Shown here: in pieces, positions 1,259-32,172 of the stretch | Position numbering within the stretch: the first letter of the stretch is position 1 | How the letters are laid out: every line of letters begins with the position of its first letter | Assembly: GCF_000515355.1 (NCBI RefSeq) | Contig: NZ_KI911621.1 | Coordinates: 15,577-62,935, forward strand | Direction: 5' to 3' | DNA from: Promicromonospora kroppenstedtii DSM 19349 | GTDB taxonomy: Bacteria; Actinomycetota; Actinomycetes; Actinomycetales; Cellulomonadaceae | DNA length: 47,359 nt | Position numbers and translations under genes: made by a program | Notes under the pieces: model-generated | Told to the model about the DNA's origin: nothing | Databases searched by the model: none | What the model saw: the letters and a program-made list of their open reading frames with translations, nothing else

Positions 1259-1329
1259 GCGGGCGTAGCTCAATGGTAGAGCCTTAGTCTTCCAAACTAA
1301 TTACGCGGGTTCGATTCCCGTCGCCCGCT
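1259..1329 (+). tRNA. tRNA-Gly (anticodon TCC)
   Basis: The cloverleaf can be folded by eye. The acceptor strands GCGGGCG and CGCCCGC pair over 7 bp with discriminator T. The D arm is GCTC/GAGC, the anticodon stem TTAGT/ACTAA encloses the loop CTTCCAA, and the T arm has the loop TTCGATT. The loop gives anticodon TCC, which reads glycine GGA. CCA is not encoded. The 3' half from base 1289 on is identical to the attR repeat, so this gene is the integration target and its 3' half is now supplied by the element. Confidence 0.96.
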
Positions 1330-1395
1330 CAGAGTGCGGAAGCCCAGGTCAGAGAGTGTTTCTGACCTGGGCTTCGTGCATTCTGGAGGGCTGGA
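1289..1395 (+). repeat. attL, 107-bp direct repeat
   Basis: Identical base for base to 25083-25189. It starts in the anticodon loop (CTTCCAA) of tRNA-Gly, runs through the tRNA 3' end and the terminator hairpin, and stops 66 bp beyond the tRNA. The bases next to the repeat differ on both sides (t/g on the left, a/g on the right). Strand exchange near the anticodon loop would be typical for tyrosine integrases at tRNA genes. The exact crossover site inside the repeat cannot be told from one integrated copy. Confidence 0.93.
1339..1375 (+). terminator. Hairpin terminator behind tRNA-Gly
   Basis: A perfect 15-bp inverted repeat (GAAGCCCAGGTCAGA and its complement) around the 7-base loop GAGTGTT lies 9 bases after the tRNA. 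No long T tract follows, which is common in high-GC actinobacteria. The same hairpin is duplicated at 25133-25169 inside attR. Confidence 0.75.
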
Positions 1396-11058: not shown

Positions 11059-11128
11059 GAGGGCTCCGGACCAGCCTCACATGGATGGGCAATCGTCCGC
11101 AAGCGCGGGCGTTCATTGCCACAGGACC

Positions 11129-11176
11129 CGTGTCACCACGCGTGTCACAGTGGCAATCGTGTCACGAACCGTGTCA
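11129..11176 (+). repeat. Four CGTGTCA motifs with 12/17/12-bp spacing
   Basis: CGTGTCA starts at 11129, 11141, 11158 and 11170, about 250-300 bp upstream of the TIR gene start. The 12-17-12 spacing makes a symmetric two-plus-two layout. A TTGCCAC/GTGGCAA inverted pair brackets the first two copies. This may be a regulator-binding site for the TIR gene. Confidence 0.45.
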
Positions 11177-11426
11177 GCCCTGGCCAACTCGCAAGCGTCC
11201 GGCCGACCCTCTTCCAACGCCAAACTACTGTCGGGCGATTGCGGCGTTGCCCGACATCGTGGTCACCGACGACCCCGTAGTGGTGGGCACCGCGGTCGGG
11301 GGTTGGGGAGGGCGACCGCAGGCAGTCAGCAGGTTCACCCCTACAGTGCCGAGCCGATGTCAGTGGTCCGGAGGACACTCCTCTCATCATCACGATGAAC
11401 TGATTTCGGATCGGAAGGGCGTTGCC

Positions 11427-12194
11427 GTGAACTTCTACAAGTACCAATGGAATGGGCTCAGGAAAGGGGCGACGATCGTCGTCCAGCTGAGCACGGGCGC
11501 CAACGTTCGCCTCATGGACAGCACGAACTTCAACGCGTACAAGGCTGGCAGGAACCACCGATACATCGGTGGCTTGGTGAAGAAGAGCCCGCACCGCATA
11601 GTGGTGCCTCGCACCGGAACGTGGTACCTGACGATCGATCTCGCTGGGCTCCGAGCGACAAGCGTGCGGCACTCCGTCGAGGTCGAGCCCCCCTCTCTGC
11701 CGACAGCCAGAAGTGCTGCGTTGCCCTCACTGGCCGGCATCCAACACGATCGAGCTCCGGTCGTACCAGACGACGACGGTGAGACGTGGGACGTCTTCAT
11801 CTCGCACGCGAGCGAAGACAAGGAGGCTGTGGCCGAGCCGCTCTACAAGGAACTGACCGAGTTGGGCGTCAAGGCGTGGCTCGACAAGGGCGAGCTGAGG
11901 ATCGGTGACAGCCTGCGCCGGAAGATCGACTACGGTCTCGCCCACAGCACGTTCGGCGTCGTCGTCCTGTCGAAGCACTTCTTCGCCAAGGGCTGGCCGC
12001 AGTATGAGCTCGACGGGATCGTGGGAATGAGCGTCAGCGGAGAGCAGCGGATGCTGCCTGTCTGGCACGAGATCTCTCGCGACGAGATCGCTCGTCAGTC
12101 ACCATCGCTCGTCGACAAGATCGCCCGCAACACCGTCACAAGCACCATCGCGGAGATCGCCGCAGAGATCGCAGATGTCGTACGCGCGGCCTGA
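11427..12194 (+). CDS. DUF1883-TIR domain protein
   Basis: 255 residues from GTG 11427, with CGGAAGG ahead. This start gives the standard DUF1883 N-terminus (NFYKYQWNGLRKGATIVVQL); open sequence further upstream is not coding-like. Residues 1-90 are DUF1883 (ANVRLMDSTNFNAYKAG, then IVVPRTGTWYLTIDLAG). Residues about 118-245 are a TIR domain: WDVFISHASEDKEAVAEPLY, KAWLDKGELRIGDSLRRKID, FGVVVLSKHFFAKGWPQYEL. The Glu of the W..YEL segment is at the position of the catalytic Glu in NAD-cleaving TIRs. Bacterial TIR proteins often deplete NAD+ or make signals during phage infection; DUF1883 may be the sensing part. It begins the defence-like block of the element. Confidence 0.88.
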   Translation: MNFYKYQWNGLRKGATIVVQLSTGANVRLMDSTNFNAYKAGRNHRYIGGLVKKSPHRIVVPRTGTWYLTIDLAGLRATSVRHSVEVEPPSLPTARSAALPSLAGIQHDRAPVVPDDDGETWDVFISHASEDKEAVAEPLYKELTELGVKAWLDKGELRIGDSLRRKIDYGLAHSTFGVVVLSKHFFAKGWPQYELDGIVGMSVSGEQRMLPVWHEISRDEIARQSPSLVDKIARNTVTSTIAEIAAEIADVVRAA

Positions 12195-12463
12195 ATGGAC
12201 AGTAAGTCCAGCAGGTCAGCGGCGAAGATGGGTGGGTGGGCGCCTGTTGCGCGCAGCGCGCACACCCCCGGAGCGCGGAGGTCCCCCGCCGTCCGGACGG
12301 CCCAGAGCACCGCAAGCACGCCTTGAGACAGTAGAGAAAGCTCCCACGACCTGCACTCATACATGGCCAAACTCACCCGCACCGGAAGGTCGGCGCAAGC
12401 TGTCAGGACGCTAGTCTAGGCGAGCGACCTCGCAGATCGAACAAGGATGCCGACGGAGGTGAC

Positions 12464-13417
12464 ATGCTACTGACGCCGAACTGGCGCGATTGGTATCACT
12501 TCCGCCACCAGCAGGAATGTTTTAAGTCGGGCACCGCATTTGAGGACTATGTGTCTAAGGTCCTAGAGCTGTATCACGACGACTATGTCAATCCAGCACC
12601 AGCTGGAAGCCTGGGGGACGGCGGCTGCGACGGTCTCGCCGAGTCGGGAAGCATCTTCTACGCTTGCTATGGCCAAAGGCCGGGACGCCTCGCTGAGCGT
12701 GAACTAGCCACGAAGATCCGAACTGATTTCGCACGCGGACTCTCGGAGTGGGACTCTTTCCACACATGGAAGTTTGTGACGAACGCTCCAGTAGGTCCGG
12801 AAGCGCTAAGAGCAATTACAGAGATTCAGGTCCTGCATGGACCAGCAACAAATAGACCACTAAACATCCGATACATTAATAAAGAACGCCTTTGGAAGGA
12901 TGTCGTCGGCACGTTTGATTTGGAAGTTCTCAACGAAGTATTTCCGGGCGCGCCCGGTATTGAGAACGTGGAACTCGCAGACCTCGTTCCATTGCTTGAT
13001 AGTTTAGGGGCCGAGAGCGCGGCGATCGACACCAATTATGCGGTGCTTCCCGTACCCATGACCAAAATGGATTACAACGAGCTGCCCGAGCATAGCCGGC
13101 TAGAGTTTAACGCAGGCAGGCGCCTCGCTCTGCGAATCGACCGATGGTACGGCGAACTTTCTGATCCTGGAGTTTATGATGCCAATGGGGAAAGATTTCG
13201 TTCTCTATACCAGTCGGCCCGGGCGGTTACGAGCGTACCGGCCGAGATCCTTGAGCGGCTGTACGTTTCGATCGCGGGGCCGAATTTCCGGATGGACGGA
13301 AAGCGCGCGAACGCGGCGTTCGCGGTCGTCTCGTACTTCTTTGACTCCTGCCACATATTTGAGATGCCACCCCAAGCCATTGAACACGAGGAGGGTTCTG
13401 GTGCTGCTGCCCACTAA
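12464..13417 (+). CDS. ABC-3C system effector-like component
   Basis: 317 residues from ATG 12464, with GGAGGTG just ahead. The gene order (this protein, a small middle component, then a DUF2326-type ATPase) and the overlaps match the ABC three-component defence systems described by the Aravind group. The N-terminal third (GTAFEDYVSKVLELYHDDYV, then SLGDGGCDGLAESGSIFYAC, YGQRPG) has the E...GDGGxDG...xxxxYxxR layout of a restriction-endonuclease-like domain. The second half is helical and is probably the system-specific C-terminal domain. The presumed role is a nuclease or effector released or activated by the ATPase. The region is more AT-rich than its surroundings. The subtype assignment is from memory of the family. 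Confidence 0.75.
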   Translation: MLLTPNWRDWYHFRHQQECFKSGTAFEDYVSKVLELYHDDYVNPAPAGSLGDGGCDGLAESGSIFYACYGQRPGRLAERELATKIRTDFARGLSEWDSFHTWKFVTNAPVGPEALRAITEIQVLHGPATNRPLNIRYINKERLWKDVVGTFDLEVLNEVFPGAPGIENVELADLVPLLDSLGAESAAIDTNYAVLPVPMTKMDYNELPEHSRLEFNAGRRLALRIDRWYGELSDPGVYDANGERFRSLYQSARAVTSVPAEILERLYVSIAGPNFRMDGKRANAAFAVVSYFFDSCHIFEMPPQAIEHEEGSGAAAH

Positions 13418-13652
13418 GGGCGTTTCGCCCGAGCGCGCCCTCATGACTGTCGGATCTGAGATCCTTGAAGAACTGCGCGACCCAATGTCAATTTCAACGC
13501 TCTGGGAGCGATTTAGCGCTCGCGACCGCTCGTCATCTAAGAGGGGCAAAATCACCTTTGACTGGTTCTCGCTCGCGCTGGCGGCTCTGTACGCGATGAG
13601 ATTGGTCGATACCTCCGAGGGTGGATACATTAGGCGCGCCCATGTTTCTTAG
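13401..13652 (+). CDS. ABC-3C middle component (small winged-helix-like protein)
   Basis: 83 residues from GTG 13401, preceded by GAGGAGGG. It overlaps the 3' end of the effector by 17 bases and the start of the ATPase by 11, so all three are translationally coupled. The sequence has the pattern expected of the ABC-3C middle component: LLPTKGVSPERALMTVGSEI at the N-terminus, ISTLWERF in the middle, then ITFDWFSLALAALYAMRLVD and a short strand. Such proteins link effector and ATPase. An in-frame ATG further upstream would lie deep in the effector gene and is not the start. Confidence 0.72.
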   Translation: MLLPTKGVSPERALMTVGSEILEELRDPMSISTLWERFSARDRSSSKRGKITFDWFSLALAALYAMRLVDTSEGGYIRRAHVS

Positions 13653-15387
13653 GGAACTATACGCGTCTGACAAACGATTCAAGCATCTCCGCTTTCACGC
13701 AGGCCTTAATATGCTTGTTGCTGATCGCGCTGACGCTTCGGCGCAGGGCGACAGCAGAAACAGCATTGGGAAAACAAGTTTTGTGAAAGTTCTTCGCTTT
13801 CTTCTAGGCGGTGAACTGCCTCCGGAGTTCAAGTCACCAGCACTTTCGGATCACGAGTTCATTGCCGTACTTAGTCTCCCCGCAGCAGGCGGCGATGGCG
13901 AGGATGTTGTCAGGGTTAGCCGAGCGGTCTCACCCGCAGCACGAGTCCAGGTGTCGGGATGGACGTTGGTTGGTAGATCGTCGGATATGCACATGGACGA
14001 TTGGCGCAATCTCCTATCTCGTCACGTTTTTCGCATTCCTGCCGATGTTACGCGCCCAACTCCTGGCCAACTTTGGGCGCAACTTATTCGTACAAGCTTC
14101 AGCAATCCTGTCAAGGGACATGCAACCGAAACCGACTGGGAGACCGGCGTAAAGATCGGATTCATGCTCGGATTGTCACCAGAGATCCTGGGTAGAGCTG
14201 GCGACGTATACCGTCTTAATAAGCAGGGCAAAGCGATCCGTGCCGCCGTGCGCGAGGGCGCAATCGCGCATCTTTCGCTCGATGAGCCAGCGCTTCGCGC
14301 GCAACTTGCGGCTGCTCGCCGTCAACGTGATCGGACGCAAACCGACCTGAAGTCTTTCAGAGTCGATGAACAGTATTCGGAGCACCAGCAGCACGCTGAT
14401 GAGCTGACTGCCTCGATACAGAAGCTCAACGACGAGGCGTTGGCTCTCCAACGGCGATCGCGCGAGCTTGATGAGACTGTGCGTGCGGAGGTCGTGTCCC
14501 GCTCGGACACCGAGCTCACGACGAGACTTGCCCGCGTATACGCGGAGATCGGTTTAGTCCTTCCTGACGCCGTCGGCCGTCGCTACGATGAAGTCCAAAC
14601 ATTCCATGAGTCAGTCGTCCGAAACCGGCGCTCGTTCCTGGAGCAAGAACTTGAGATGGTTCAAGCGCGCTTAAGCGCTCTTGATTCAGAACGTCGAGCC
14701 CTGGATGACCAGAGGTCTCAAATCTTGCGACTCCTTAGAGAGACCGTCGCGCTCGACACGTTCGTGGCGGTTCAGCGTGACCTTGCCAGTCACGAGGCGG
14801 ATGTTGCGGACCTTGAGAGACGGCTTGAGGCAGCAAATTCAATCAGCACGATCAATGACACAATCACATTGCGAACAGCAGAGCTTGTTGCATCGGTTCG
14901 GTCGGAGATAAATGAGCGAGGCGACAGGCTCGAACACTCCATATCCCTGTTCGGCGCCCTCGGCGCGGAAATTTACACGGACCGCGACGCTTCTCTGCTT
15001 GTCACACCGACAGCGAAGGGCCTTCTAGGCGTCGACCCGCACATTTCAGGCGACGCTAGTACGGGCGTTCGCAGCGTCGAGACGTTTATGTTCGACATGG
15101 TTTGTGCGATCGCAGCGATCGAGGCGGGTCGGGCGCCGCGTTTGCTTGTTCATGACAGCCATCTATTTGATGCTATCGACGGGAGGCAGGTCGCCTCTTG
15201 TCTAAACATCGGCGCGCGGCTAGCGGAAGAGTACGGGTTCGAGTACATCGTGACTATGAACTCTGACTTTCTCGCCTCGGTCGAGGATCAAAGCGAAGGT
15301 GCTTTCGATAGTGAGCCCTACATGATGAACGTACGACTCACCGACGAGTCTGATTCGGGAGGGCTCTTTGGCTTCCGATTCGAATAG
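13642..15387 (+). CDS. ABC-3C ATPase (DUF2326/SMC-like)
   Basis: 581 residues from ATG 13642, the family-typical N-terminus MFLRELYASDKRFKHLRFHA. The P loop is degenerate-looking but of the family type (GDSRNSIGKTSFVKVLRFLL; NSIGKTS). A long coiled coil spans about residues 215-410 (ALRAQLAAARRQRDRTQTDL, QLEMVQARLSALDSERRALD-like heptads). The C-terminus carries the DUF2326 part with the D loop region (PRLLVHDSHLFDAIDGRQV) instead of a classical DEP Walker B, and ends in GGLFGFRFE. Such ATPases sense DNA or phage activity and drive the other two components. No strong SD is seen; translation is probably coupled to the middle component. Confidence 0.82.
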   Translation: MFLRELYASDKRFKHLRFHAGLNMLVADRADASAQGDSRNSIGKTSFVKVLRFLLGGELPPEFKSPALSDHEFIAVLSLPAAGGDGEDVVRVSRAVSPAARVQVSGWTLVGRSSDMHMDDWRNLLSRHVFRIPADVTRPTPGQLWAQLIRTSFSNPVKGHATETDWETGVKIGFMLGLSPEILGRAGDVYRLNKQGKAIRAAVREGAIAHLSLDEPALRAQLAAARRQRDRTQTDLKSFRVDEQYSEHQQHADELTASIQKLNDEALALQRRSRELDETVRAEVVSRSDTELTTRLARVYAEIGLVLPDAVGRRYDEVQTFHESVVRNRRSFLEQELEMVQARLSALDSERRALDDQRSQILRLLRETVALDTFVAVQRDLASHEADVADLERRLEAANSISTINDTITLRTAELVASVRSEINERGDRLEHSISLFGALGAEIYTDRDASLLVTPTAKGLLGVDPHISGDASTGVRSVETFMFDMVCAIAAIEAGRAPRLLVHDSHLFDAIDGRQVASCLNIGARLAEEYGFEYIVTMNSDFLASVEDQSEGAFDSEPYMMNVRLTDESDSGGLFGFRFE

Positions 15388-20516: not shown

Positions 20517-23500
20517 CTACATTCCGATTCCCTCCTCACGCCGGGTCGCGCCGGGCCGTCGGCCGTGCGTGGTCTGGGATCGAAACGCCTGACGTAGGGC
20601 CGCGGCGGAACGCGCCGCATCGACAGCCTGTGCATCGGTGTCGACTGCCTCGTTACCGAGTGGTGCGGCGCTCGCGATGCTGTAGCGGTCGCGGTAAGCG
20701 GCGATCATGCGTGTGGCGGTCTGCCAGGCGAGTCGGGCGCCGGTGTCGCCTGGTTCGGGGCCGAGCGCCGCACGCCAAGGTTCGTGGTCGCTCGTAGCGC
20801 GTTGGACGAGATCGGTGACGCGTTGCTCGATCAACACCGCCCGCTGCGCCAGCGCCAGCCGGTATTCGTCGGTCATCGGCCCGGTGGCTTCCGGGATGAG
20901 GCCGGCGATCCGGCGGGGTGCGGGCCGTCGGATGGTCAGCCCGTCGTTGCGGACGGGTCGGGTTGTGGCGGTGACGAGGCGGTGGTGCAGGACGGCTGCG
21001 GGGTCGTCGGCGTCATCCAGGCCGCGCTGAGCGACGAGCTGGGGCAGCAGGTGGTCGACGTCGTGGCCGTCGGCTTCGGCGCGGCGTAGTTCGGCGGTCA
21101 GGGCGCCGAAGGCAGGGGCGGTGATGACCTGGTCCGCGCCCCGGGGTGAGAGCCCGCTGTGGTGGAGCAATCGGGTCCAGCGGTCCCGCTGTGCGCCCCC
21201 GGCCAAGGTTTCGTATTCGGCGGCGAGCTGCGCGATCGATCCCCACCGCTCGCGCTCATCCCGCCGTACCTGGGTGGCGGCTTTCTCGGCTCCGACCGTG
21301 CGGACGATCCTGGCCAGGATGCTCCGGGGTGTGGGGTCTTCGTAGTCGTCCGGGGTGATCTCCAGTGGCGTGTCGGTGATGACGTAGGCGGTGTTGTTCT
21401 CCCTTCCGCGAGTCAGGCCGACGTACAGGTGCTCCCGGGTGATGCCCGGCCCGGTGATGAAGTGGCTCGTGTCTACCGTGAGGCCTTGGGCGCGGTAGGT
21501 GGTCACGGCGTAGCCGAGATCCAGGTGCTCCGTGGCGTAAGCGGCGGGCAGCACGATCGTGTTGCCGTACCTGACCTCCGGCCGCCGCACGACGAGCGAC
21601 CCGTCGTCGCGGACCTCAACAAGGGTCCACCGGTCGCCGTTGCGCACCCACGATCCGCTCCTAGTTCGAAGGCGGCGGTCGTTGCGGCGCGTGATGACCA
21701 CATCGCCGGCCGAGGCTTGGAGTCCGTCGGCGAGACGGACGGACCGGCCGCGTTCGGTGGTTCCGGTCTGGAGTCGTTCGGCGCGGGCACGTTCGTTGAT
21801 GGCCCGCACGGTCTCGTTGTCCCCGGCAACCAGAACCGAGTCCTTGCCGTCTGCGAAGTCGGCCTGCCAGGCGGCATAGGCGACCTCGACCATCGCCTGG
21901 GCGTCCCCGTCACGGACCCGACCGTTCTCAAGGTAGGCGTCAATGGCTTCGTCGTGTCCGTGGCGTAGGGCGAGGGAGGCGTGTTTCTCCCACGTATGGG
22001 TGAACCGGTGCACCTCGGTCAGCTCCGGTGCCCCGTCCTCGGTCTGGCGGGCAGCGGCAAGGAGCGCGAAGGCTCCGCCGGCCTCGACGGCCTGTAGCTG
22101 GGCCGGGTCACCGACCAACAGCACCTTCGCCCCCACCTCGGCCGCGTGCGCCGTGATCCGGTCCAGGGTCAGGGTCCCGGCGAGCGTGGCCTCATCGACG
22201 ATGGCCAACTGTCCCGCGCTGAACGCAGCGCCCTGGTGGAGATGGTCGTGGAGCCACTTGGCGGTGTTCTCGCATCCGATGCCCAGGTCTTCGGCCAGGA
22301 TCGCCGCTGCGACCGCAGACGGCGCAAGCCCAACGACGGACCCTGACCCGTGCTCGTGCTCCCACGCAGCGCGCAGCGCGCGCATGGTGGTGGTCTTCCC
22401 GGCCCCGGCTGGGCCGACCAACAGGTCCACCTGTCGTGCCGAGACAGCGACACGGGCGATGGCTTCGGCCTGCTCGCCCGAGACCACCCACGTCCGCTCA
22501 CCGGGACCGCCCGTGGTGATGGCGTGCTCGACAGCGTCCAGGCTGATGGTCGGGCCCGTTCGGGTGCCGGCCCAGTCCAGGAGCCGTGCCTCGGCGTCCA
22601 GCAGGGCCTGTGAGGAGTAGAGGGCTGAGTCCTTCGGGCGCAGGATGCTGCTTCCGTCTGGTCGGCGGAACTCCTCGGGGGTGACGGCCAGGTCGTGCGG
22701 CGTCAACAGCACCGAGCCGCCCTGGGCCCGGTCCGTGATCGCCGCGAGCACGGCCATCCGGTCCCCAGCGGTGGCGAACCGCAGGGCTTTGGTCTGCCGG
22801 GCCGCTTCGGCGTACAGGTTCCAGCGCCGCCACGTCGGCCGCTTCTCCGAGACCACGATCACCACCGTCTGGGCAAGGGCGTCGATCAGGTCCAGCGGGA
22901 CGTCATCGGCTCGCAGCACTCGAGGCGGCGCCTTGGACACGAGGTCGCTGGCCCACGTGCCGGGGTCGCGGCCCAGGATCTGGGCAGTATGCAGCCGCCA
23001 CGCTCTGGCCAGATCGGCCAGGGAGTGGTGCGTCTTGTCCGGGCGGGTCTCCCGGCTGGCCCGCTGCCGGTACTTGTTGATCGTGGGCCGGCTGGGGCGG
23101 CGCCCGTACTTCGCGACGTGCTCCGCGATCAGCTCGTCAGCGCGAGTGTTGACCTGTACCGACCGGCGCGAGAACGCCACCAGCAGATCATCCGGCACGC
23201 CCTTGATCGACCAGCCCGGGTTGCGGCCCTGCCCGACCCTGGGCCGCAGCTCCCATCCGACACCCAAGGTGCGGGTCAGGTGGTCCATCACGATTGCTTC
23301 GTGCAGCTCCGACATCGCGACCGTCGCGGCGTGCAGCCCTCGCCCGTCCAGGGACCGCCACTTCCCGTCCAGGACGGTCTTGACCTTGTTGGAGACCACG
23401 ACGTGGGTGTGCAGGTGCGGGTCGTTGGTCCGTGAGTCCCAGTGATCGAACGCCATGCCGATCAACCCGGTCACCGGGACCTGCGCCACCGCGCCGCCCT

Positions 23501-24026
23501 CCCCTGCCGCGCTGGTCGCGTTCCCAGCGACAGACGCCCCGGTCCTGGTCGCGGCCAGCTCGCGTTCCATGAACGCGAACACCTCGGCCACCGCCACGTG
23601 GTGGATCGCCACGATCTGTTCCTGGACCCCGGCATCGGCCACACCCCACAAGATCGAGGCCGACTTCGGCAGCGCGAACGAGAAGTCATACCCCGCCACC
23701 GCACGCCGAGACTTACCGCCCGCGTTAGGTCCGTACACCGGATAGGCGCGGCCGAGCCGTTCCCCCGTGATCGGGTCCAGGGCCTTGCCCGCCAACCGAG
23801 CCATCTGCTCCTCGGTCACCATGTCCCCCACGAGCAGACGCCCCAGCTCGTTCGAGCCCAGGCTCGCGACACCGGAACCCATCCACCGGCCGGGCGGCGT
23901 GCCCGTCTCGGTGTAGTACCGCGTCAACGGGGTACTCATCGACCGGTCGCCATCTCCGGCCGCGACCGACCTCATGAAGTACGAGTACCCGTCCCCGCCC
24001 GACATCACGGCAATCGTCACAGCCAT
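20517..24026 (-). CDS. MobF (TrwC/TraA-type) conjugative relaxase-helicase
   Basis: About 1169 residues from ATG 24026, with GAGGAGGT ten bases ahead; GTG 24035 touches the SD and is unlikely. The N-terminal relaxase domain has candidate catalytic tyrosines (YSYF and TRYYTETGTPPGRW), PKSASILWG, and the three-His metal site HWDSRTNDPHLHTHVVVSNK near residue 195. The second half is a RecD-like SF1B helicase with Walker A VGPAGAGKTTTMRAL (about residue 536), IVDEATLAGT, and late motif TTYRAQGLTVDTSHF. MobF enzymes nick oriT, stay linked to the 5' end and unwind the transferred strand. No coupling protein or pilus genes accompany it, so transfer probably needs a helper. The oriT is expected nearby, possibly in the 360 bp upstream. 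Confidence 0.95.
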   Translation of the reverse strand: MAVTIAVMSGGDGYSYFMRSVAAGDGDRSMSTPLTRYYTETGTPPGRWMGSGVASLGSNELGRLLVGDMVTEEQMARLAGKALDPITGERLGRAYPVYGPNAGGKSRRAVAGYDFSFALPKSASILWGVADAGVQEQIVAIHHVAVAEVFAFMERELAATRTGASVAGNATSAAGEGGAVAQVPVTGLIGMAFDHWDSRTNDPHLHTHVVVSNKVKTVLDGKWRSLDGRGLHAATVAMSELHEAIVMDHLTRTLGVGWELRPRVGQGRNPGWSIKGVPDDLLVAFSRRSVQVNTRADELIAEHVAKYGRRPSRPTINKYRQRASRETRPDKTHHSLADLARAWRLHTAQILGRDPGTWASDLVSKAPPRVLRADDVPLDLIDALAQTVVIVVSEKRPTWRRWNLYAEAARQTKALRFATAGDRMAVLAAITDRAQGGSVLLTPHDLAVTPEEFRRPDGSSILRPKDSALYSSQALLDAEARLLDWAGTRTGPTISLDAVEHAITTGGPGERTWVVSGEQAEAIARVAVSARQVDLLVGPAGAGKTTTMRALRAAWEHEHGSGSVVGLAPSAVAAAILAEDLGIGCENTAKWLHDHLHQGAAFSAGQLAIVDEATLAGTLTLDRITAHAAEVGAKVLLVGDPAQLQAVEAGGAFALLAAARQTEDGAPELTEVHRFTHTWEKHASLALRHGHDEAIDAYLENGRVRDGDAQAMVEVAYAAWQADFADGKDSVLVAGDNETVRAINERARAERLQTGTTERGRSVRLADGLQASAGDVVITRRNDRRLRTRSGSWVRNGDRWTLVEVRDDGSLVVRRPEVRYGNTIVLPAAYATEHLDLGYAVTTYRAQGLTVDTSHFITGPGITREHLYVGLTRGRENNTAYVITDTPLEITPDDYEDPTPRSILARIVRTVGAEKAATQVRRDERERWGSIAQLAAEYETLAGGAQRDRWTRLLHHSGLSPRGADQVITAPAFGALTAELRRAEADGHDVDHLLPQLVAQRGLDDADDPAAVLHHRLVTATTRPVRNDGLTIRRPAPRRIAGLIPEATGPMTDEYRLALAQRAVLIEQRVTDLVQRATSDHEPWRAALGPEPGDTGARLAWQTATRMIAAYRDRYSIASAAPLGNEAVDTDAQAVDAARSAAALRQAFRSQTTHGRRPGATRREEGIGM

Positions 24027-24386
24027 ACGCCGCACACCTCCTCAGCACGAGGTGTGCAGCCCGCACCCAAAGCGGGCTAAATTGCTCTAGGCGCCTCGAT
24101 CTGCAAGAGGCGTGTGGCCTTTCCCCGAGGCGGTCCGCGGGACCTTCTGTCCATCCGCCCGACTGCCCTAGCCGTGCAGCCGTGCCTGTCTCGCCGCCGT
24201 GTCAGTCGCGCTGCACGCAGCCACGTACTCGTCCGCCATCGCGGCTCGCCGACTTTGCCCGTGCTGCCGTGGCGCCGAAGGGGCGCGCGGTGGAGTCCCC
24301 CTACGAGCTTGAGCAGACTTCCCGGAGCATGCGAATGGCCGCCTTCCCCGGTAGTGGGATGGCGCCCCTGCGGTGACGCCAGCGGC
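24027..24386. other. 360-bp non-coding region upstream of the relaxase (candidate oriT)
   Basis: No credible CDS. It contains the relaxase SD and an imperfect hairpin at about 24091-24112 (GCGCCTC, nine bases, GAGGCGT). In many mobilizable elements oriT lies directly upstream of the relaxase gene and carries such an inverted repeat next to the nick site. I cannot identify the nick sequence, so this is a positional inference only. Confidence 0.3.
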
Positions 24387-25082: not shown

Positions 25083-25189
25083 CTTCCAAACTAATTACGC
25101 GGGTTCGATTCCCGTCGCCCGCTCAGAGTGCGGAAGCCCAGGTCAGAGAGTGTTTCTGACCTGGGCTTCGTGCATTCTGGAGGGCTGGA
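25083..25189 (+). repeat. attR, 107-bp direct repeat with tRNA-Gly 3' remnant
   Basis: An exact copy of 1289-1395. It holds the tRNA-Gly 3' part (CTTCCAA onward, to 25123) and the 15-bp terminator hairpin (25133-25169), but no 5' half, so it cannot yield a tRNA. It marks the right junction of the element. Confidence 0.93.
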
Positions 25190-25365: not shown

Positions 25366-26373
25366 CTAGAGCGTCAAGCGCACTTTCCATCCCTCAGCGT
25401 TCGGCACGACGACACCTGCTACGTCGGCCCAGCCCGGGCGTCCTGCTTCCCGCCACTGCTCGATCCACCCAGTCAGCACTCGTGTTGCATCGGCATCCCC
25501 CGAGGTGACCAGTTCGCCGTCCGTGAGGAATGCGGCGCCGTCTTCATTGGCCATACCGATGCTGGTGAAGCGATCAGAGAGCCCGGCGGTAGCCAGCTCG
25601 TCCGGAACGGTCTCATACAACCAAGCCCTGAAGTCGTCGAGTTCTTCCGCCGCCACAAGCGGCGTGTTCGACACGTCAGGCCCGGTCCTGAGCCGGTCCA
25701 GTACCAGGCCGAGCGCCCCGGGGACCTTCCGTTGCGCCAGGCTACTGATCCACCACGGTTCGGCATCATCAGGAACGTGGGATGCCGTGACATAGCGAAG
25801 CGGCAGTCCAAAGACGGTAACGGGTTCGGGATGCATCTCGATATACCCACCAGGTCGCACTGCGACAACCCGCGGATGCCCGGCGGTCACGGTGACGGCA
25901 ACGATCGCGTGCGCAGTCGCAAGTTCTGCGACCTTGACCGGTGCCACGATGACGGCGTCCCGGGCAACCTGGTCGATCCAAGCAGACGGGATCACGTGCG
26001 GGGTCGCCCAGGCCACGACACGGTCGTAAGGCGCTCCACCCGGGTCGCCCGCATAACCATCGCCGTTGCTCACAGTCACGTTCGTGACGCCGGCCGCTTC
26101 CAGGCGAGCCTGCGCCCGGGGCACCAGGTCGGCAAACACCTCGACCGATCTCACGAGTCCACTCGGGCCGACAAGGCTGGCGAGCAGCGCGGACGTGTAA
26201 CCGGATCCGGTGCCGATCTCCAGGACGCGGTGTCCGGGCCGGACATCGAGGTCTTCGAGCATCTTCTGGATCGAAGCGACGCCGGAAGACTGAGGGAGTG
26301 TGGAGCCGTCCGGTTCAGTGACGAAGTGGTCGTAGTCGACAGCGGCGACCGCGTTGGCAACGGCGGTGGTCAT
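25366..26373 (-). CDS. PIMT-like O-methyltransferase of the lasso cluster (aspartimide-forming)
   Basis: 335 residues from ATG 26373, with AAGGAG seven bases ahead. The N-terminal 210 residues are a protein-L-isoaspartate methyltransferase: LPQSSGVASIQKMLEDLDV, the SAM-binding motif I VLEIGTGSGYTSALLA, and NGDGYAGDPGGAPYDRVVAW. About 120 further residues (from WWISSLAQRKV to the end) are absent from repair PIMTs but usual in RiPP-associated ones. In known cases (cellulonodin-2, lihuanodin, OlvSA lanthipeptide, graspetides) such enzymes methylate a specific Asp side chain in the cyclised peptide, which then collapses to an aspartimide. The probable target is D6, before T7, in the core. It is the last gene of the A-C-B1-B2-M operon, and its start lies 59 bases inside B2. 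Confidence 0.88.
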   Translation of the reverse strand: MTTAVANAVAAVDYDHFVTEPDGSTLPQSSGVASIQKMLEDLDVRPGHRVLEIGTGSGYTSALLASLVGPSGLVRSVEVFADLVPRAQARLEAAGVTNVTVSNGDGYAGDPGGAPYDRVVAWATPHVIPSAWIDQVARDAVIVAPVKVAELATAHAIVAVTVTAGHPRVVAVRPGGYIEMHPEPVTVFGLPLRYVTASHVPDDAEPWWISSLAQRKVPGALGLVLDRLRTGPDVSNTPLVAAEELDDFRAWLYETVPDELATAGLSDRFTSIGMANEDGAAFLTDGELVTSGDADATRVLTGWIEQWREAGRPGWADVAGVVVPNAEGWKVRLTL

Positions 26374-26809
26374 GGGTGGCTCCTTCGAGTACGGGCGGGA
26401 TCGTCATGGTGCGCAGAAAAGAAGGCGTGGTCGCGGGTTCGTCGACCGGAACGCCGTCGGCCTCGACCCACGCATGGAACGTGTACGGGTGGACCTGCAC
26501 GCCGTGGCACCACACCACGGCTCGCCCGCGTAGGGCGGCCAGCCACGTCGTCGTCAGTGAGATCTCGAGACAGGCAGCACGACCTGGCCACCAGGTCGCC
26601 GCGCGGCGAACGGTCCGCACCAACGCGTGGGCCTGATCCACCGTAGCCAGGTCATGCGCACGACCGTTGCAGCACCTCGTTGCCGCGAGTAAGACCCGAA
26701 GAGGCAAGAGCCTCAGGAAGGCGATCACCAGCACGAGGGCGATGAACGCCAGCACAGTCTTCGATCCGGACATCCGCCCGACCTGGGGGGCCGCCATCGT
26801 CACGCTCAT
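26315..26809 (-). CDS. Lasso peptide leader peptidase (B2, transglutaminase-like)
   Basis: 164 residues; the ATG overlaps the B1 stop as ATGA (26806-26809). The family core is present: a hydrophobic N-terminal helix (TVLAFIALVLVIAFLRLLPL), ALVRTVRRAATWWPGRAACL with the catalytic Cys, and FHAWVEADGVPVDEP with catalytic His and Asp. It removes the leader after the threonine-containing recognition site once B1 presents the precursor. The last 19 or so residues are read through the start of the methyltransferase gene in another frame and are Arg-rich, an odd, probably non-essential tail. Length is near the usual 140-150. Confidence 0.88.
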   Translation of the reverse strand: MSVTMAAPQVGRMSGSKTVLAFIALVLVIAFLRLLPLRVLLAATRCCNGRAHDLATVDQAHALVRTVRRAATWWPGRAACLEISLTTTWLAALRGRAVVWCHGVQVHPYTFHAWVEADGVPVDEPATTPSFLRTMTIPPVLEGATHDHRRCQRGRRCRLRPLRH

Positions 26810-27078
26810 GCTCCTGCCTCCTGGATGAGGCGGCCGCCGAGCAGAGTAGTGCGCAGATGTTCGGTCCAGGTCGCGGCCTGCGTGTCATCCTGTCGCGCGA
26901 TGCGCTCGACGATGTCCGGTATAGGTCCGCCCGGCCCCTCCACGAGCGTGCAGAGCAGTGCGGCAGCGGTGGGATTCAGGGCGTAGACGCGGTCGCGGGC
27001 GACGTCGATCAGTACGCTGCCGCCGTCAGGCGTCGGTGTGGACGTGACGTGGTCGGCCAGTCGATAGCGGGGCGTCAT
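26806..27078 (-). CDS. Lasso peptide RiPP recognition element protein (B1, PqqD-like)
   Basis: 90 residues from ATG 27078, with GAGGAGG six bases ahead; a longer frame to 27108 would overlap the cyclase stop and lacks an SD. It has the PqqD/RRE pattern: RYRLADHVTSTPTPDGGSVL, then DVARDRVYALNPTAAALLCT, and C-terminal helices. B1 binds the leader (YxxP..G..T-type segment) and delivers it to B2 and the cyclase. It sits 13 bp after the cyclase stop and overlaps B2 by four bases, so stoichiometric coupling with B2 is expected. Confidence 0.9.
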   Translation of the reverse strand: MTPRYRLADHVTSTPTPDGGSVLIDVARDRVYALNPTAAALLCTLVEGPGGPIPDIVERIARQDDTQAATWTEHLRTTLLGGRLIQEAGA

Positions 27079-27091
27079 CTGCTGCCTCCTC

Positions 27092-28876
27092 TCAGGTGAT
27101 CCAGGCAATGCGGGAACGAGCCTCTTCGGAGCGAAGCCAGACCTCGGTAGCGATCAGGTCGTTGATGCCGGCCAGGCGGACATCGGCACCGCGGATCGCC
27201 CGGTCGAGCACCATGGCTGCGTGCCCGTGTTCGACCAGTCCGGAGCCGACCAGACGCGACCTCGCGAAGAGGGCACGCAGGTCGCCGGCGTTGCGGGACA
27301 GGCCCGCGTAGTGGAGCGCGGTGTAGTCACCCTTCGTGGACCGGTCCAGAACCGATGCAGGAACGTGCTGGTTCAGGGCCGCTCGCAACAGAGGCTTGGC
27401 GACGAATGCGCTGGTACGTTCTCGTGCGGGTACCGAAAGGCACGCACGCGCCACACCATCGGTCACGAAGGGAGCTACCTGACGCAGACCATGCGCCTGA
27501 GCTATCTCCAGATCGATGCGGTGGTCCCTCCCGAACGTCAGGACTGCGTTGGCGGCGATGCGATCCCCGATGGGTCCCTCGTCTCCGACGCGGTCGTCGG
27601 GCAAAGGCACACAGTCAGCGGCCGCACGGTGGCCCTCGGTGGTAAGCCAGGCGGCGTCAGGTGCTCCGAACCACCGCAGCCGACCTGCCGCTCCTTGGTG
27701 CGACGAACGACCGGTACGAAGCTCACGGACGAGCCTTCTCAGTGCGGACCGCTCCGACGTCCTGGCCAAGCGTGTGGCCGCGACGACGATCGGGAGCGGT
27801 GCACTCGTGCGCAGCTGTGCCCAAGCACGCGCTTCGCGGACGAGGCGCGGTACGTCACGGACGAGATCCGCAAGATAGGCCAGCGACCCGGACAGGACGG
27901 CGTCACCGCCGTCGCCCGTCAGGTGAACAGAAGAACCGAGGTCCATCAGTTGTTGCTGCCACCAGCGGGTGCGGGCATACAGGACGGCATCGGACCACGG
28001 CTCGTCGGTATACGGGACCCGGTCAAGGTCCGTGTAGGGAAGGACGGTCTTGGGGATACGACGCACCTCATGCCGAAGCATCGGCTGCGTTGCGGCAATC
28101 CGCGTGGCATGAGCCAGGTCTTCATTTCCCACCTGTGCCGAATCAAGGGTGAGCCCGATCAGGGGCACCGCTCGTGCGGCTAGTGCTGCGACCGAGCTTG
28201 AGTCCAGACCACCGGAAAGGTCCGAGGTGACAAGCCCGGTCAACGGGGCACCGACCTCGGCACGCAGCGCCTCGTAGAGCCGATTGCCACCGGCAGCAAG
28301 ACTCAGCGCAGCGTTCCTCGGTGGCCGGCCCATGGTCGTCGGTGCGTGGCTGGGCCGTAGGACGAGCATCCTGGTGGGCGGCACGACTGCCACTCGTTCG
28401 TGTGCCGATCGTGTCGAGAGCGGAATGACATCCGGGCACGAGAGTCGTAGCCCCAGCCATCCCTGATCGACTCCGGTTCCCAGCAGATCGGCCAAGACGT
28501 AGGACGAAGACGCGAAGTGTGCGGCACCGTCATGAACCGCGTGGAACACGAGACGGGTTCCGGCGACGTCACCGGTGACGATGGTCCTCCGGGCATCCGC
28601 CCAGACGACGTGGCTGTTCCCGCCCCGGTCGATCAACGGTTCGACCTCCAGTCGGCTGGCGAACCGACGTGCCTGGCGAGCCAGCTCTGTGTGGCCACAC
28701 GTGACCTCGCCCAGAACGACGCACCACCAATCCGGACCATCGAGGACGCGCACCTGGTCATCCGGCCAGGCACCGAGCAACCACACCGCTACATACCGTG
28801 ACCGCAGCATGCGACTGCCCGCAGGACGGGGCGGGAGGTCCGCCCCCGTCGTAATCGATCCACCGAAACTACGCAT
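27092..28876 (-). CDS. Lasso peptide cyclase (C, asparagine synthetase-like)
   Basis: 594 residues from ATG 28876, starting MRSFGGSI as many lasso cyclases do. The ATP-pyrophosphatase PP-loop is SDLSGGLDSSSVAALAA (about residue 222), and the synthetase domain includes LTGDGGDAVLSGSLAYL and VAPFVTDGVARACLSVP. The N-terminal half is a degenerate glutaminase-like domain without the N-terminal Cys. The enzyme adenylates an Asp or Glu side chain and joins it to the freed N-terminus of the core, trapping the tail in the ring. Here G1 to D9 is predicted. It lies 35 bp after the precursor gene and is the second gene of the operon. Confidence 0.92.
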   Translation of the reverse strand: MRSFGGSITTGADLPPRPAGSRMLRSRYVAVWLLGAWPDDQVRVLDGPDWWCVVLGEVTCGHTELARQARRFASRLEVEPLIDRGGNSHVVWADARRTIVTGDVAGTRLVFHAVHDGAAHFASSSYVLADLLGTGVDQGWLGLRLSCPDVIPLSTRSAHERVAVVPPTRMLVLRPSHAPTTMGRPPRNAALSLAAGGNRLYEALRAEVGAPLTGLVTSDLSGGLDSSSVAALAARAVPLIGLTLDSAQVGNEDLAHATRIAATQPMLRHEVRRIPKTVLPYTDLDRVPYTDEPWSDAVLYARTRWWQQQLMDLGSSVHLTGDGGDAVLSGSLAYLADLVRDVPRLVREARAWAQLRTSAPLPIVVAATRLARTSERSALRRLVRELRTGRSSHQGAAGRLRWFGAPDAAWLTTEGHRAAADCVPLPDDRVGDEGPIGDRIAANAVLTFGRDHRIDLEIAQAHGLRQVAPFVTDGVARACLSVPARERTSAFVAKPLLRAALNQHVPASVLDRSTKGDYTALHYAGLSRNAGDLRALFARSRLVGSGLVEHGHAAMVLDRAIRGADVRLAGINDLIATEVWLRSEEARSRIAWIT

Positions 28877-28911
28877 CGGATCAGGCCTCCCGTCTCGTCG
28901 CTGCAGGTCGG

Positions 28912-29058
28912 TCAGTAGTAGTACTTCTTCATGTCGGCGGTGTCGTTCTTGCCCTGACCCAGCGTCAGTCGCGTAAGGGTGCCCAGCTCGGTCACCACCG
29001 GCGGCTCGACCGCCACGGTGTCGAGGTCGGCGAGAACATCCGAGGACTTGGTCTCCAT
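28912..29058 (-). CDS. Lasso peptide precursor (A) with predicted core GQGKNDTADMKKYYY
   Basis: 48 residues from ATG 29058, with GAAGGAG six bases ahead; an in-frame upstream ATG (29094) has no better SD. The leader (METKSSDVLADLDTVA, then VEPPVVTELGTLTRLTL) has the P..TELG.LT..T pattern recognised by B1, with Thr at position -2. Cleavage after RLTL leaves a 15-residue core starting with Gly. D9 is at the right distance for a nine-member ring. D6-T7 lie inside the ring and match the Asp-Thr site modified in aspartimide lasso peptides. The tail MKKYYY has three bulky Tyr that could act as plugs. It is the first gene of the operon. Confidence 0.88.
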   Translation of the reverse strand: METKSSDVLADLDTVAVEPPVVTELGTLTRLTLGQGKNDTADMKKYYY

Positions 29059-29369: not shown

Positions 29370-29831
29370 TCACGGGAGAAGGTGCGCATTGGGTTCGCGC
29401 GCAGCGCCGGCCAGCTCGGCCAACTCAAGGACCTCACGGCCAGCGGCACGCAGCGTCTCGGCACCGACGCAGTCGACGAACAGGTCGGGCTCGCGCCAGG
29501 CGAACACGACCCGCGGGATGCCGGCCCGCAGGATGTGCTGGGTGCAGGTGACGGGGCGTGACGCACGTGTGCTGCACGGTTCGAGGGAGGTGTAGATCGT
29601 GGCAGTAGCAAGCAGGCCGCGGTCCGCCTCGCCGACATCAGCAAGTGCGGCTTCTTCGGCGTGCTCATGAAGATCGCCCCGCCGCGACCATCCCGTACCC
29701 AGAACCGTGCCGTCATCGGCCACGACCATCGCTCCGACCGAGAACGCCGTCTCGGACGGAGGGCACCGCCAGGCCAGACCGATGGCCCGCTCAAGGAGAG
29801 CCCTGTCTCGGGACTCGCGGAACTCGCTCAT
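29370..29831 (-). CDS. RibD-type / dCMP-type deaminase
   Basis: 153 residues. The zinc-deaminase motifs are present: HEHAEEAAL (HAE) and SLEPCSTRASRPVTCTQHIL (PCxxxxxxxxxC with a longer spacer, as in RibD deaminase domains). The N-terminal RALLERAIGLAWRCPPSETA is like RibD. The ATG overlaps the stop of the reductase gene by four bases (ATGA). In riboflavin synthesis this domain deaminates a diaminopyrimidine nucleotide, and deaminase plus reductase are one RibD protein; here they are two genes. The substrate may be another pyrimidine or pterin nucleotide. Confidence 0.85.
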   Translation of the reverse strand: MSEFRESRDRALLERAIGLAWRCPPSETAFSVGAMVVADDGTVLGTGWSRRGDLHEHAEEAALADVGEADRGLLATATIYTSLEPCSTRASRPVTCTQHILRAGIPRVVFAWREPDLFVDCVGAETLRAAGREVLELAELAGAAREPNAHLLP

Positions 29832-30505
29832 CGCCGCGGAATGTAGCGCAGCAGCACGCAGTCACCAATGGCACGCGTCTCGACCAGGGCCATCCGGTGC
29901 TTGCTGTCCTGCGGGAAGCCGCTGGGGTTGACGAAGCGCGGCGCACTCTCGTCGCCGACGAAGAACGGCGCGAACACCACGTGCAGCTCGTCCACGAGCC
30001 CTGCGGACAGGAACATCGTGTGAATCGTTCCGCCGCCTTCGACCATCAGCCGTTCCACGCCACGCGCGGCCAGATCGGCCAGAACACCGGCCGGGTCGAC
30101 ACTGTCCCCAAGCCCCACGACCGAGGCGGCCGGTCCCATCCGATCGGACAGTGCCGGCGCAGCGGCCGCCGTGGTGTACACGATCTTGTCGATGTCACCG
30201 GTCGCAAAGAACTTCGCCTCGGGATCGATGTCTCCGCTGGCCGTGACAGTCACCTTCACGGGAGTCTCCGGCCTCCCGTCGGCAAGCCGCTTCGCCCGGC
30301 GCTCCTCCGAGCGGACCATCAGTCGAGGATTGTCAGCCCGGATCGTACTGGCCCCCACGAGGATCGCGTCGACGTCGGCCCGCACGCTGTCGACCCGGTC
30401 GAAATCCTCGTCGTTGGACAGCAGCAGCCGCTCGGGCGTCGCGTCGTCGATGTACCCGTCGAGGCTCGCCGCCACAGAAAGCACGACATACGGTCGGCTG
30501 GTCAT
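29828..30505 (-). CDS. RibD C-terminal / dihydrofolate-reductase-fold reductase
   Basis: 225 residues. MTSRPYVVLSVAASLDGYID is the standard RibD_C start, followed by DAILVGASTIRADNPRLMVR and a late RLMVEGGGTIHTMFLSAGLV (EGG motif) with VDELHVVFAPFFVG. NADPH-dependent reduction of a ribosylated aminopyrimidine is the family reaction. It starts 2 bp after the HTH-SLOG gene stop and overlaps the deaminase. The three together form a compact operon, so the pair is likely a split RibD-like unit for a dedicated pathway instead of bulk riboflavin (inference). Confidence 0.87.
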   Translation of the reverse strand: MTSRPYVVLSVAASLDGYIDDATPERLLLSNDEDFDRVDSVRADVDAILVGASTIRADNPRLMVRSEERRAKRLADGRPETPVKVTVTASGDIDPEAKFFATGDIDKIVYTTAAAAPALSDRMGPAASVVGLGDSVDPAGVLADLAARGVERLMVEGGGTIHTMFLSAGLVDELHVVFAPFFVGDESAPRFVNPSGFPQDSKHRMALVETRAIGDCVLLRYIPRR

Positions 30506-30507
30506 TT

Positions 30508-31236
30508 TCAGGCCCCCACCTTCATCGAGACGATGCGCTCAACGAGCATTCCGTACTGCGCCGAGTTCTCACAGGCCCCGATCTCGTCGAGAACGGAACC
30601 CGCAAGGCCACCATGATGACGTGGATCAGCTCGCATCTGTTCATAGCAGCGGCTCGCGGTGCCGCCCGTGCGAGGGAACGGCACGATCGTCCTGCCAGCC
30701 TGCCGTGCGAGCGTCACCTCCGCGGCAGTCCCCGCTCCGCCACCGATCACGAGGAACAGATCCGCGCCACGGACCACGTTCTCGTGCTCGAACAGCGCCG
30801 CGGTCATGGTGAAACCGGACGGTCGGAACTGGTCCGCCACATACGTCATGACTTCGATACCAACGCCGATCGGTCCATGGTTGACGTCAAGGTTCTCCGA
30901 CACGACGAGCCGGGCAAGCTCAGCGACCGTCGCATCGATCAGTCCTGCGTCGCTGCCCGCGACCCGGCTGCCGCAGATCGCGATACGTAACCTCGACTGC
31001 TTGCGCCCACCGGTGTCGGCACGCTCGTCGACATTGCGGATCATCACATCCAGATCGTCCACCGACACCTGAAGGACGGTGGCGAGGCGCGGTCGGAACC
31101 ACGCCAAGGGCTGGGTCTCGCCAGACTCCCAGCGAGCGACCGTGGTGCGCTCGATTCCCAGCCGCTCCGCGAGCGCCTCCTGGCTCAGCCCCAATGCCCG
31201 ACGTCGGCTTGCCAGCCGGTCACGTCGCCGCTTCAT
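30508..31236 (-). CDS. HTH-SLOG fusion protein
   Basis: 242 residues from ATG 31236. Residues 1-62 are an XRE-type HTH (RRRDRLASRRRALGLSQEAL, then ERTTVARWESGETQPLAWF). Residues about 84-235 form a Rossmann-like SLOG domain: LRIAICGSRVAG, GADLFLVIGGGAGTAAEVTL and AGRTIVPFPRTGG. SLOG proteins bind nucleotides or related ligands; LOG-type members hydrolyse nucleotide N-glycosidic bonds. The PGGxGTxxE motif of LOG is changed to GGGAGTAAE. It may sense the product of the downstream reductase/deaminase pair and repress the operon. It is the first gene of the minus-strand block that ends with the lasso genes. Confidence 0.82.
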   Translation of the reverse strand: MKRRRDRLASRRRALGLSQEALAERLGIERTTVARWESGETQPLAWFRPRLATVLQVSVDDLDVMIRNVDERADTGGRKQSRLRIAICGSRVAGSDAGLIDATVAELARLVVSENLDVNHGPIGVGIEVMTYVADQFRPSGFTMTAALFEHENVVRGADLFLVIGGGAGTAAEVTLARQAGRTIVPFPRTGGTASRCYEQMRADPRHHGGLAGSVLDEIGACENSAQYGMLVERIVSMKVGA

Positions 31237-31437
31237 CCCCGCACCCCTGTCCACATATCCCCCGGAGCGCACACGCGGCACCCGAGGGGCAACGATGCCG
31301 CGCCCGCACCGCGAGCGCCAGCAACCGGGCCGAGACGCCTCGAAGGAACGTCGAGCCTCCCGCCCGCCCGCACCGATGCGGGGAAGCGGCACACGCCACC
31401 ATGGGCCAGTAACGACCCCCTGTGGGACCGTGTCGAC

Positions 31438-32172
31438 ATGAGACCCGCACGGCACCGCACCCCCGCCCGCGGTCCGCAGACCCCCGGCGCGACGCGAACC
31501 GCACCTCGCGCGCGCCGCCTGGTACGCGCTGCGCTCGTCGGTGTCGCGACCGGCGCCGCCATCGTCGTCATCGCGCTTCTCGTGCGCGAACAGTGGCCGC
31601 CGCTCGTGCAGTTCGACGAACGTGCAGTGACGGAGGGCGCCGCGTTCGCGGCTCAGCATCCCGAGCTGCTGCGGGCACTCATCGCATGGCAGTGGGCCTT
31701 CCTCGCAATCCACCTGCTCGTGCCCGTCGGAGCGATCTGCCTCGTCTACTGGTGGCGCACCGGCAACGCCACGCGCACCTGGTGGGCGCTCACGACGATC
31801 CTCACGGCCTGGGGCCTGTCCAACCTGCTGAAGGAGCTCGCGCGCCGCGCGCGGCCGGTGCTGGACCAGCCGGTGGAGAGCGCCGACGGCTTCTCGTTCC
31901 CGTCGGGGCACGCCGCGAACACCGCGGCGATGACCACGGCACTCGTGGCCCTCGTGTGGCCGTCGCTCAGATCGCGCGCCCTACGCGCCACGGCAATAGT
32001 CGGGGCCGCAATGCTCACGGTCGCCACCGCGGTCGACCGGGTCATGCTCGGCGTCCACTACCCCTCCGACGTGGCGGCCGGCGTCCTCTTCGGCGTCGGT
32101 TTCGTGCTGGCGTCGTACCTCGCCTACCAGCACTGGTCGGCGCCGCGCCGCGAACCGGGTACGTCCTCCTGA
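31438..32172 (+). CDS. PAP2-superfamily phosphatase, membrane protein
   Basis: 244 residues, about five to six membrane segments, first at about 33-49 (GVATGAAIVVIALLV). The three PAP2 motifs are intact: KELARRARP (KxxxxxxRP), FPSGHA, and DRVMLGVHYPSDV. It dephosphorylates lipid phosphates such as phosphatidic acid, undecaprenyl pyrophosphate or phosphatidylglycerol phosphate at the membrane. Its TGA shares a base with the ATG of a second PAP2 gene, so the two are co-translated. Confidence 0.88.
   Translation: MRPARHRTPARGPQTPGATRTAPRARRLVRAALVGVATGAAIVVIALLVREQWPPLVQFDERAVTEGAAFAAQHPELLRALIAWQWAFLAIHLLVPVGAICLVYWWRTGNATRTWWALTTILTAWGLSNLLKELARRARPVLDQPVESADGFSFPSGHAANTAAMTTALVALVWPSLRSRALRATAIVGAAMLTVATAVDRVMLGVHYPSDVAAGVLFGVGFVLASYLAYQHWSAPRREPGTSS

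Follow-up and report, generated by a model that had tools for sequence, protein, structure and literature searches.

Lassimiditides are aspartimidylated lasso peptides, of which a 2026 review (PMC13001092) names two as characterised, cellulonodin-2 and lihuanodin. A set of five genes on the minus strand of a Promicromonospora kroppenstedtii DSM 19349 contig combines lasso peptide genes with a PIMT-like methyltransferase gene, which poses the question whether its product belongs to this kind of peptide. We analysed the whole stretch of 47,359 nucleotides around it (hereafter the window), together with similar loci in other genomes and plasmids.

A complete lasso peptide operon

The five genes occupy positions 25366-29058 of the window, and every frame is open (Table 1). 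A leader-bearing precursor, a B1, a B2, and a cyclase, which together define a lasso cluster, are all found, with two scores just under their cut-offs: that of the cyclase for its best NCBIfam model, NF033561 (albusnodin/ikarugamycin cyclase, 288.8 against 300), and that of B1 for Pfam PqqD (22.2 against 23.4). The model that B1 does pass, NF038044, is named for actinodefensin clusters. The SGGLDSS loop of the cyclase was recognised by eye.

An earlier note, made from the sequence alone, had described a complete precursor-C-B1-B2-M cluster, and the open frames and family models bear this out. It had also described the four partner genes as overlapping. Among neighbouring genes of the operon, B1 and B2 share 4 bases and B2 and M share 59, but a 35-base gap separates the precursor from the cyclase, and the cyclase does not reach into B1 if B1 starts at its ATG. 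This ATG is preceded by GAGAGGAGG; the alternative, longer start is a TTG at 27108. Ribosome-binding sites lie ahead of at least the precursor, B1, B2, and M. A scan found no sigma-70-like promoter at the operon, such scans being of little value for actinobacteria.

Table 1. Genes of the lasso operon, with window coordinates and the evidence for each assignment.
Feature	Position	Strand	Evidence
Lasso precursor, 48 aa	28912..29058	-	NF033521, 22.1 bits (cut-off 19); Shine-Dalgarno GAAGGAG before ATG; frame
Lasso cyclase C, asparagine-synthase family, 594 aa	27092..28876	-	Pfam Asn_synthase, 101.4 bits (cut-off 21)
B1, PqqD-like leader-binding protein, 90 aa	26806..27078	-	NF038044, 70.6 bits (cut-off 45); start site
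B2, leader peptidase, 164 aa	26315..26809	-	NF033537, 80.7 bits (cut-off 33); Transglut_core3, 75.6 (cut-off 26)
PIMT-like O-methyltransferase M, 335 aa	25366..26373	-	PCMT, 103 bits

Sequence hallmarks in the precursor and the methyltransferase

According to the review, cellulonodin-2 and lihuanodin have in common a DTAD at core positions 6-9, with Asp6 as the modified residue and Asp9 as the one that closes the ring; the methyltransferases of lassimiditides carry a WXXXGXP motif in their C-terminal domain, and DTAD and WXXXGXP are the two sequence hallmarks of aspartimidylated lasso peptides (PMC13001092). The window has both features as the review describes them, this description being the basis of the likeness.

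The precursor consists of a 33-aa leader, METKSSDVLADLDTVAVEPPVVTELGTLTRLTL, and a 15-residue core, GQGKNDTADMKKYYY, laid out as GQGKN-DTAD-MKKYYY. The core and the Thr at leader position -2 had been claimed before, and both are seen in a frame that matches NF033521. DTAD takes up core positions 6-9, where lassimiditides of group 1 have D(T/S)AD. Among the small ORFs of the window, the pattern T-x-G-x4-D[TS]AD turns up close to a stop a single time, against none in 300 single-base shuffles. At position -17, the leader has a Val, against a Tyr in all eight other lassimiditide-type leaders that we read by eye.

In the methyltransferase, the PCMT match spans residues 5-148 and leaves 187 residues beyond it, in keeping with the long C-terminal extension claimed for this PIMT-like protein. 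The extra C-terminal part described for lassimiditide enzymes is present together with its motif, WREAGRP at residues 307-313, of which W307, G311, and P313 are invariant in 10 of 10 aligned methyltransferases. A further trait of group 1 enzymes is a C-terminal domain with a fold like that of the Thermotoga maritima PIMT (1DL5); in the window protein, the profile match to 1DL5 stops at position 148, and an AlphaFold model, built from 3 sequences only, has a mean pLDDT of 41 and was set aside. WXXXGXP also exists outside lasso clusters: it is reported in graspetide and imiditide enzymes (PMC13001092), and we found it in 13 of the 14 proteins of our methyltransferase tree set, including those of loci L029 and L051, which have no recognised lasso cyclase nearby.

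Related clusters in genomes and plasmids

Besides the window, we read eight other precursor-C-B1-B2-M clusters. Searches of plasmids matched 97 records for the methyltransferase and 44 for the cyclase; in four of the six regions examined, these four all from Streptomyces, this gene order is annotated (NZ_CP108348.1, core GTNNFDTADDTQYKNA; NZ_CP109045.1, GTQNFDTADDTQYKNA; NZ_CP134606.1, GTNNFDTADETQYKNA; NZ_CP118575.1, GTNNFDHADDTEYKNA). The same order was read directly in four genomes: G592 (core GTAAHDTADMNTARYY), G654 (GAADDDTADMNTAKYY), and G470 and G472, both of the window's own genus, which have the core GKYAEDSQDEGRYFE with DSQD in place of DTAD. B1 and B2 of G470 and G592 were assigned by size and place only, and the G654 cluster may be broken or mis-sequenced because its cyclase reads in two frames. 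Asp is found at positions 6 and 9 of all nine cores. DTAD is found in six of them and so is not universal among similar clusters, and even this count is biased upward because a D[TSN]AD pattern had served to find some of the precursors.

The four plasmid clusters resemble that of the window in their five genes, in the order of these, and in keeping Asp6 and Asp9, but their cores follow GT[NQ]NFD[TH]AD[DE]T[QE]YKNA and their proteins are distant (34-36% identity to the window for the methyltransferases, 30-32% for the cyclases). Of the other two plasmid regions, one is the albusnodin-type cluster of Amycolatopsis sp. AA4 (NZ_CP024895.1); its cyclase is named for the same family and is 33% identical, and its core also starts with Gly, but a GNAT-family gene stands where the window has the methyltransferase, and the core lacks DTAD. 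The other, from a Nonomuraea plasmid (L040), is unannotated, and we found no small ORF with D[TSN]AD in it. Overall, the window methyltransferase is 33-37% identical to those of seven of the other clusters, and alignment of the cyclase with eight others gave identities of 30-33%; as judged from these sequences, the window cluster belongs to a divergent Promicromonosporaceae branch.

Several loci differ in single respects. The plasmid core of Streptomyces sp. WZ-12 (L037, 5677-5799) has DHAD in place of DTAD, which puts a His behind the Asp that is the expected site of modification. The methyltransferases of the two GKYAEDSQDEGRYFE clusters (L026, up to 7796; L027, 3250-7189) group with 100/100 support with two from the genus that have no recognised lasso cyclase nearby; they were perhaps recruited separately, in a tree for which the program warns of long branches. 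The core patterns that we used gave no precursor in G317 and G446 (cyclases 31-32% identical), and a methyltransferase was present with no cyclase motif nearby in G465 and at two places in G467, one of whose two methyltransferases was left out of the tree.

Predicted product and its probable novelty

In lasso peptides in general, B1 binds the leader of the precursor and B2 cuts it off. In the window, B1 would bind the precursor leader and B2 would cleave after Leu-1, upon which the cyclase would link the Gly1 amine to the Asp9 side chain, to give a 9-residue ring threaded by the MKKYYY tail. The methyltransferase would then esterify Asp6 on the already folded lasso, and attack of the Thr7 backbone amide on this ester, with departure of methanol, would leave an aspartimide at D6-T7. 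The steps are modelled on cellulonodin-2 and lihuanodin as summarised in the review (PMC13001092), what we observe here being genes and motifs. Because both hallmarks are present and Asp6 and Asp9 occur in every core read, the G1-D9 ring, D6-T7 aspartimide, and MKKYYY tail proposed in the earlier note stand as the predicted structure, to which the family models and the gene order also point.

Taken together, these features make it very probable that the operon makes a lassimiditide. Our confidence is slightly lowered because WXXXGXP is common to other classes of RiPPs and because the DTAD count was partly selected; the sub-cut-off cyclase with its identity of only 30-33% to the others, the Val at -17, the divergent B1, the non-universality of DTAD, and, to a small degree, the negative promoter scan also count against this reading. 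The lasso could instead be made and end as a methyl ester, or with Asp or isoAsp at the modified position. Aspartimides do hydrolyse, and PIMT homologues of other RiPP classes are described as yielding isoAsp (PMC13001092, PMC10787088), but the Asp of the window core is followed by Thr, an arrangement that in lihuanodin directs hydrolysis back to Asp and lets the cycle repeat (PMC13001092). We regard such a final product as improbable.

If it is a lassimiditide, GQGKNDTADMKKYYY is probably an undescribed core of an already known kind of peptide. A search for the exact core found no match in the open-access literature, which favours the earlier suggestion of an undescribed member; that suggestion is no more than likely, because predicted lassimiditides or their clusters are already listed beyond the reach of this search, 58 of them by Cao et al. 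2023 (as told in PMC13001092) and 67 by Kim and colleagues 2023. A degenerate DNA pattern for the core had 0 matches in viral contigs. The precursor had no tblastn match in plasmids at E 10, a search that is insensitive because similar precursors do occur there. With its core (GQGKN before DTAD, a tail ending in YYY) and enzymes only about a third identical to the others, the cluster would test how far the DTAD and WXXXGXP rules reach.

Occurrence of the cluster and methyltransferases without partners

In the family sample, the cyclase of the window matched 6 of 221 genomes (E 1e-30) and its methyltransferase 9 (E 1e-25), three of these with more than 60% identity, the window's own being included in each count. 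The order sample gave the methyltransferase in one genome of 297, the window's own (E 1e-40), and the class sample the cyclase in 2 of 394, own included (E 1e-60). A profile of ten methyltransferases matched five of these 394 at E 1e-50: the window's own, G592, G654, G563, and G589. The last two were excluded from the nine cores; the G563 locus (L050) is truncated by the end of its contig, and the ORFs read in that of G589 (L051) include no cyclase. The cyclase of G592 occurs in 1 of 22 genomes of its order, G592 itself. Two loci, L005 and L006, match only part of the methyltransferase query. The assembly from which the window comes consists of 209 contigs and has a completeness of 83%.

The closest methyltransferases found, lone METHYLTRANSFERASES, are those of Promicromonospora iranensis (77%) and Myceligenerans salitolerans (64%). 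Together with that of the window they form one clade with 100/100 support (88/87 for the inner pair). Their frames are open and keep WXXXGXP, but no precursor, cyclase, or B1 accompanies them in their loci. At the P. iranensis locus, a stretch that matches window 31333-31124 sits 12 bases from one that matches 26599-25369. No counterpart exists there for some 4.5 kb of the window arrangement, which include the precursor, the cyclase, B1, and the first part of B2, and what remains of B2 is split between frames. Only B2 and M were seen at the M. salitolerans locus, and no cyclase was found in that genome at E 1e-5. Neither 17-kb locus showed a G-x4-D[TS]AD precursor. The window's genome encodes a second lasso precursor on contig C179 (L034, minus strand, near base 5185 in the numbering of the reverse complement); its core is GSKKKAGTEDKRYAYR, without DTAD, and P. 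iranensis keeps a lasso precursor with this same core.

These lone enzymes offer a natural way to ask what the methyltransferase does without the peptide. The pN/pS of the gene between the window and P. iranensis is 0.23, the window gene has a dN of 0.312 relative to M. salitolerans and that of P. iranensis one of 0.284, and the tree branches of these two measure 0.13 and 0.16, respectively. By these measures, in a comparison that covers P. iranensis only, its methyltransferase does not clearly seem to be speeding up, which would fit a recent loss of the partners and continued use equally. A role of its own for the PIMT-like enzyme of this branch, beyond the lasso peptide, is a rather unlikely prospect; such a role could lie in the repair or modification of some other protein, or in protection from the lassimiditide of a neighbour.

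Least probable, at a very low level, is that the window locus is itself silent or decaying like its relatives. That neither of the two nearest has a precursor, cyclase, or B1 at its locus speaks for it, as does rarity within the genus: among the 13 genomes listed, one has a window-type cyclase (the remaining matches being 32-35% identical) and two have a methyltransferase of more than 60% identity. Against it stand the five open frames of the window cluster and the ribosome-binding sites noted above. Other readings were ruled out: a chance ORF by the family models, the gene order, and the eight other clusters; a graspetide or pamtide by the lasso leader, B1, B2, and cyclase; and an albusnodin-type product by a precursor score below the albusnodin model NF033525 (20.6 bits, cut-off 30) and by the methyltransferase where the Amycolatopsis cluster has its GNAT gene.

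Genomic neighbourhood

An exact second copy of the 3' end of a tRNA-Gly (TCC) is present at a distance of 23.8 kb (window 1259-1330 and 25099-25123), and the two copies frame an apparent integrative element that carries a TrwC-type relaxase (20517-24035). Some 240 bp separate the 3' end of the lasso operon, which is outside this element, from the attachment-site repeat. The lone methyltransferase of P. iranensis is adjoined by DNA that matches the repeat region and parts of the relaxase. Within the element (11085-15387), a DUF1883-TIR protein (PADLOC PDC-S66, 203.6 bits; ThsB, 123.2) and two ABC-3C CTD10-domain proteins, one of them a PDC-M68B match (371.5 bits), are likely phage-defence cargo. 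Upstream of the operon, on the same strand (29370-31911), are a deaminase gene, a gene resembling a RibD_C reductase, and an HTH gene that matches SLOG weakly. The deaminase/RibD pair falls in the part without counterpart in P. iranensis, through either loss there or gain in the window, and of the HTH gene the first part is retained there beside the gap.
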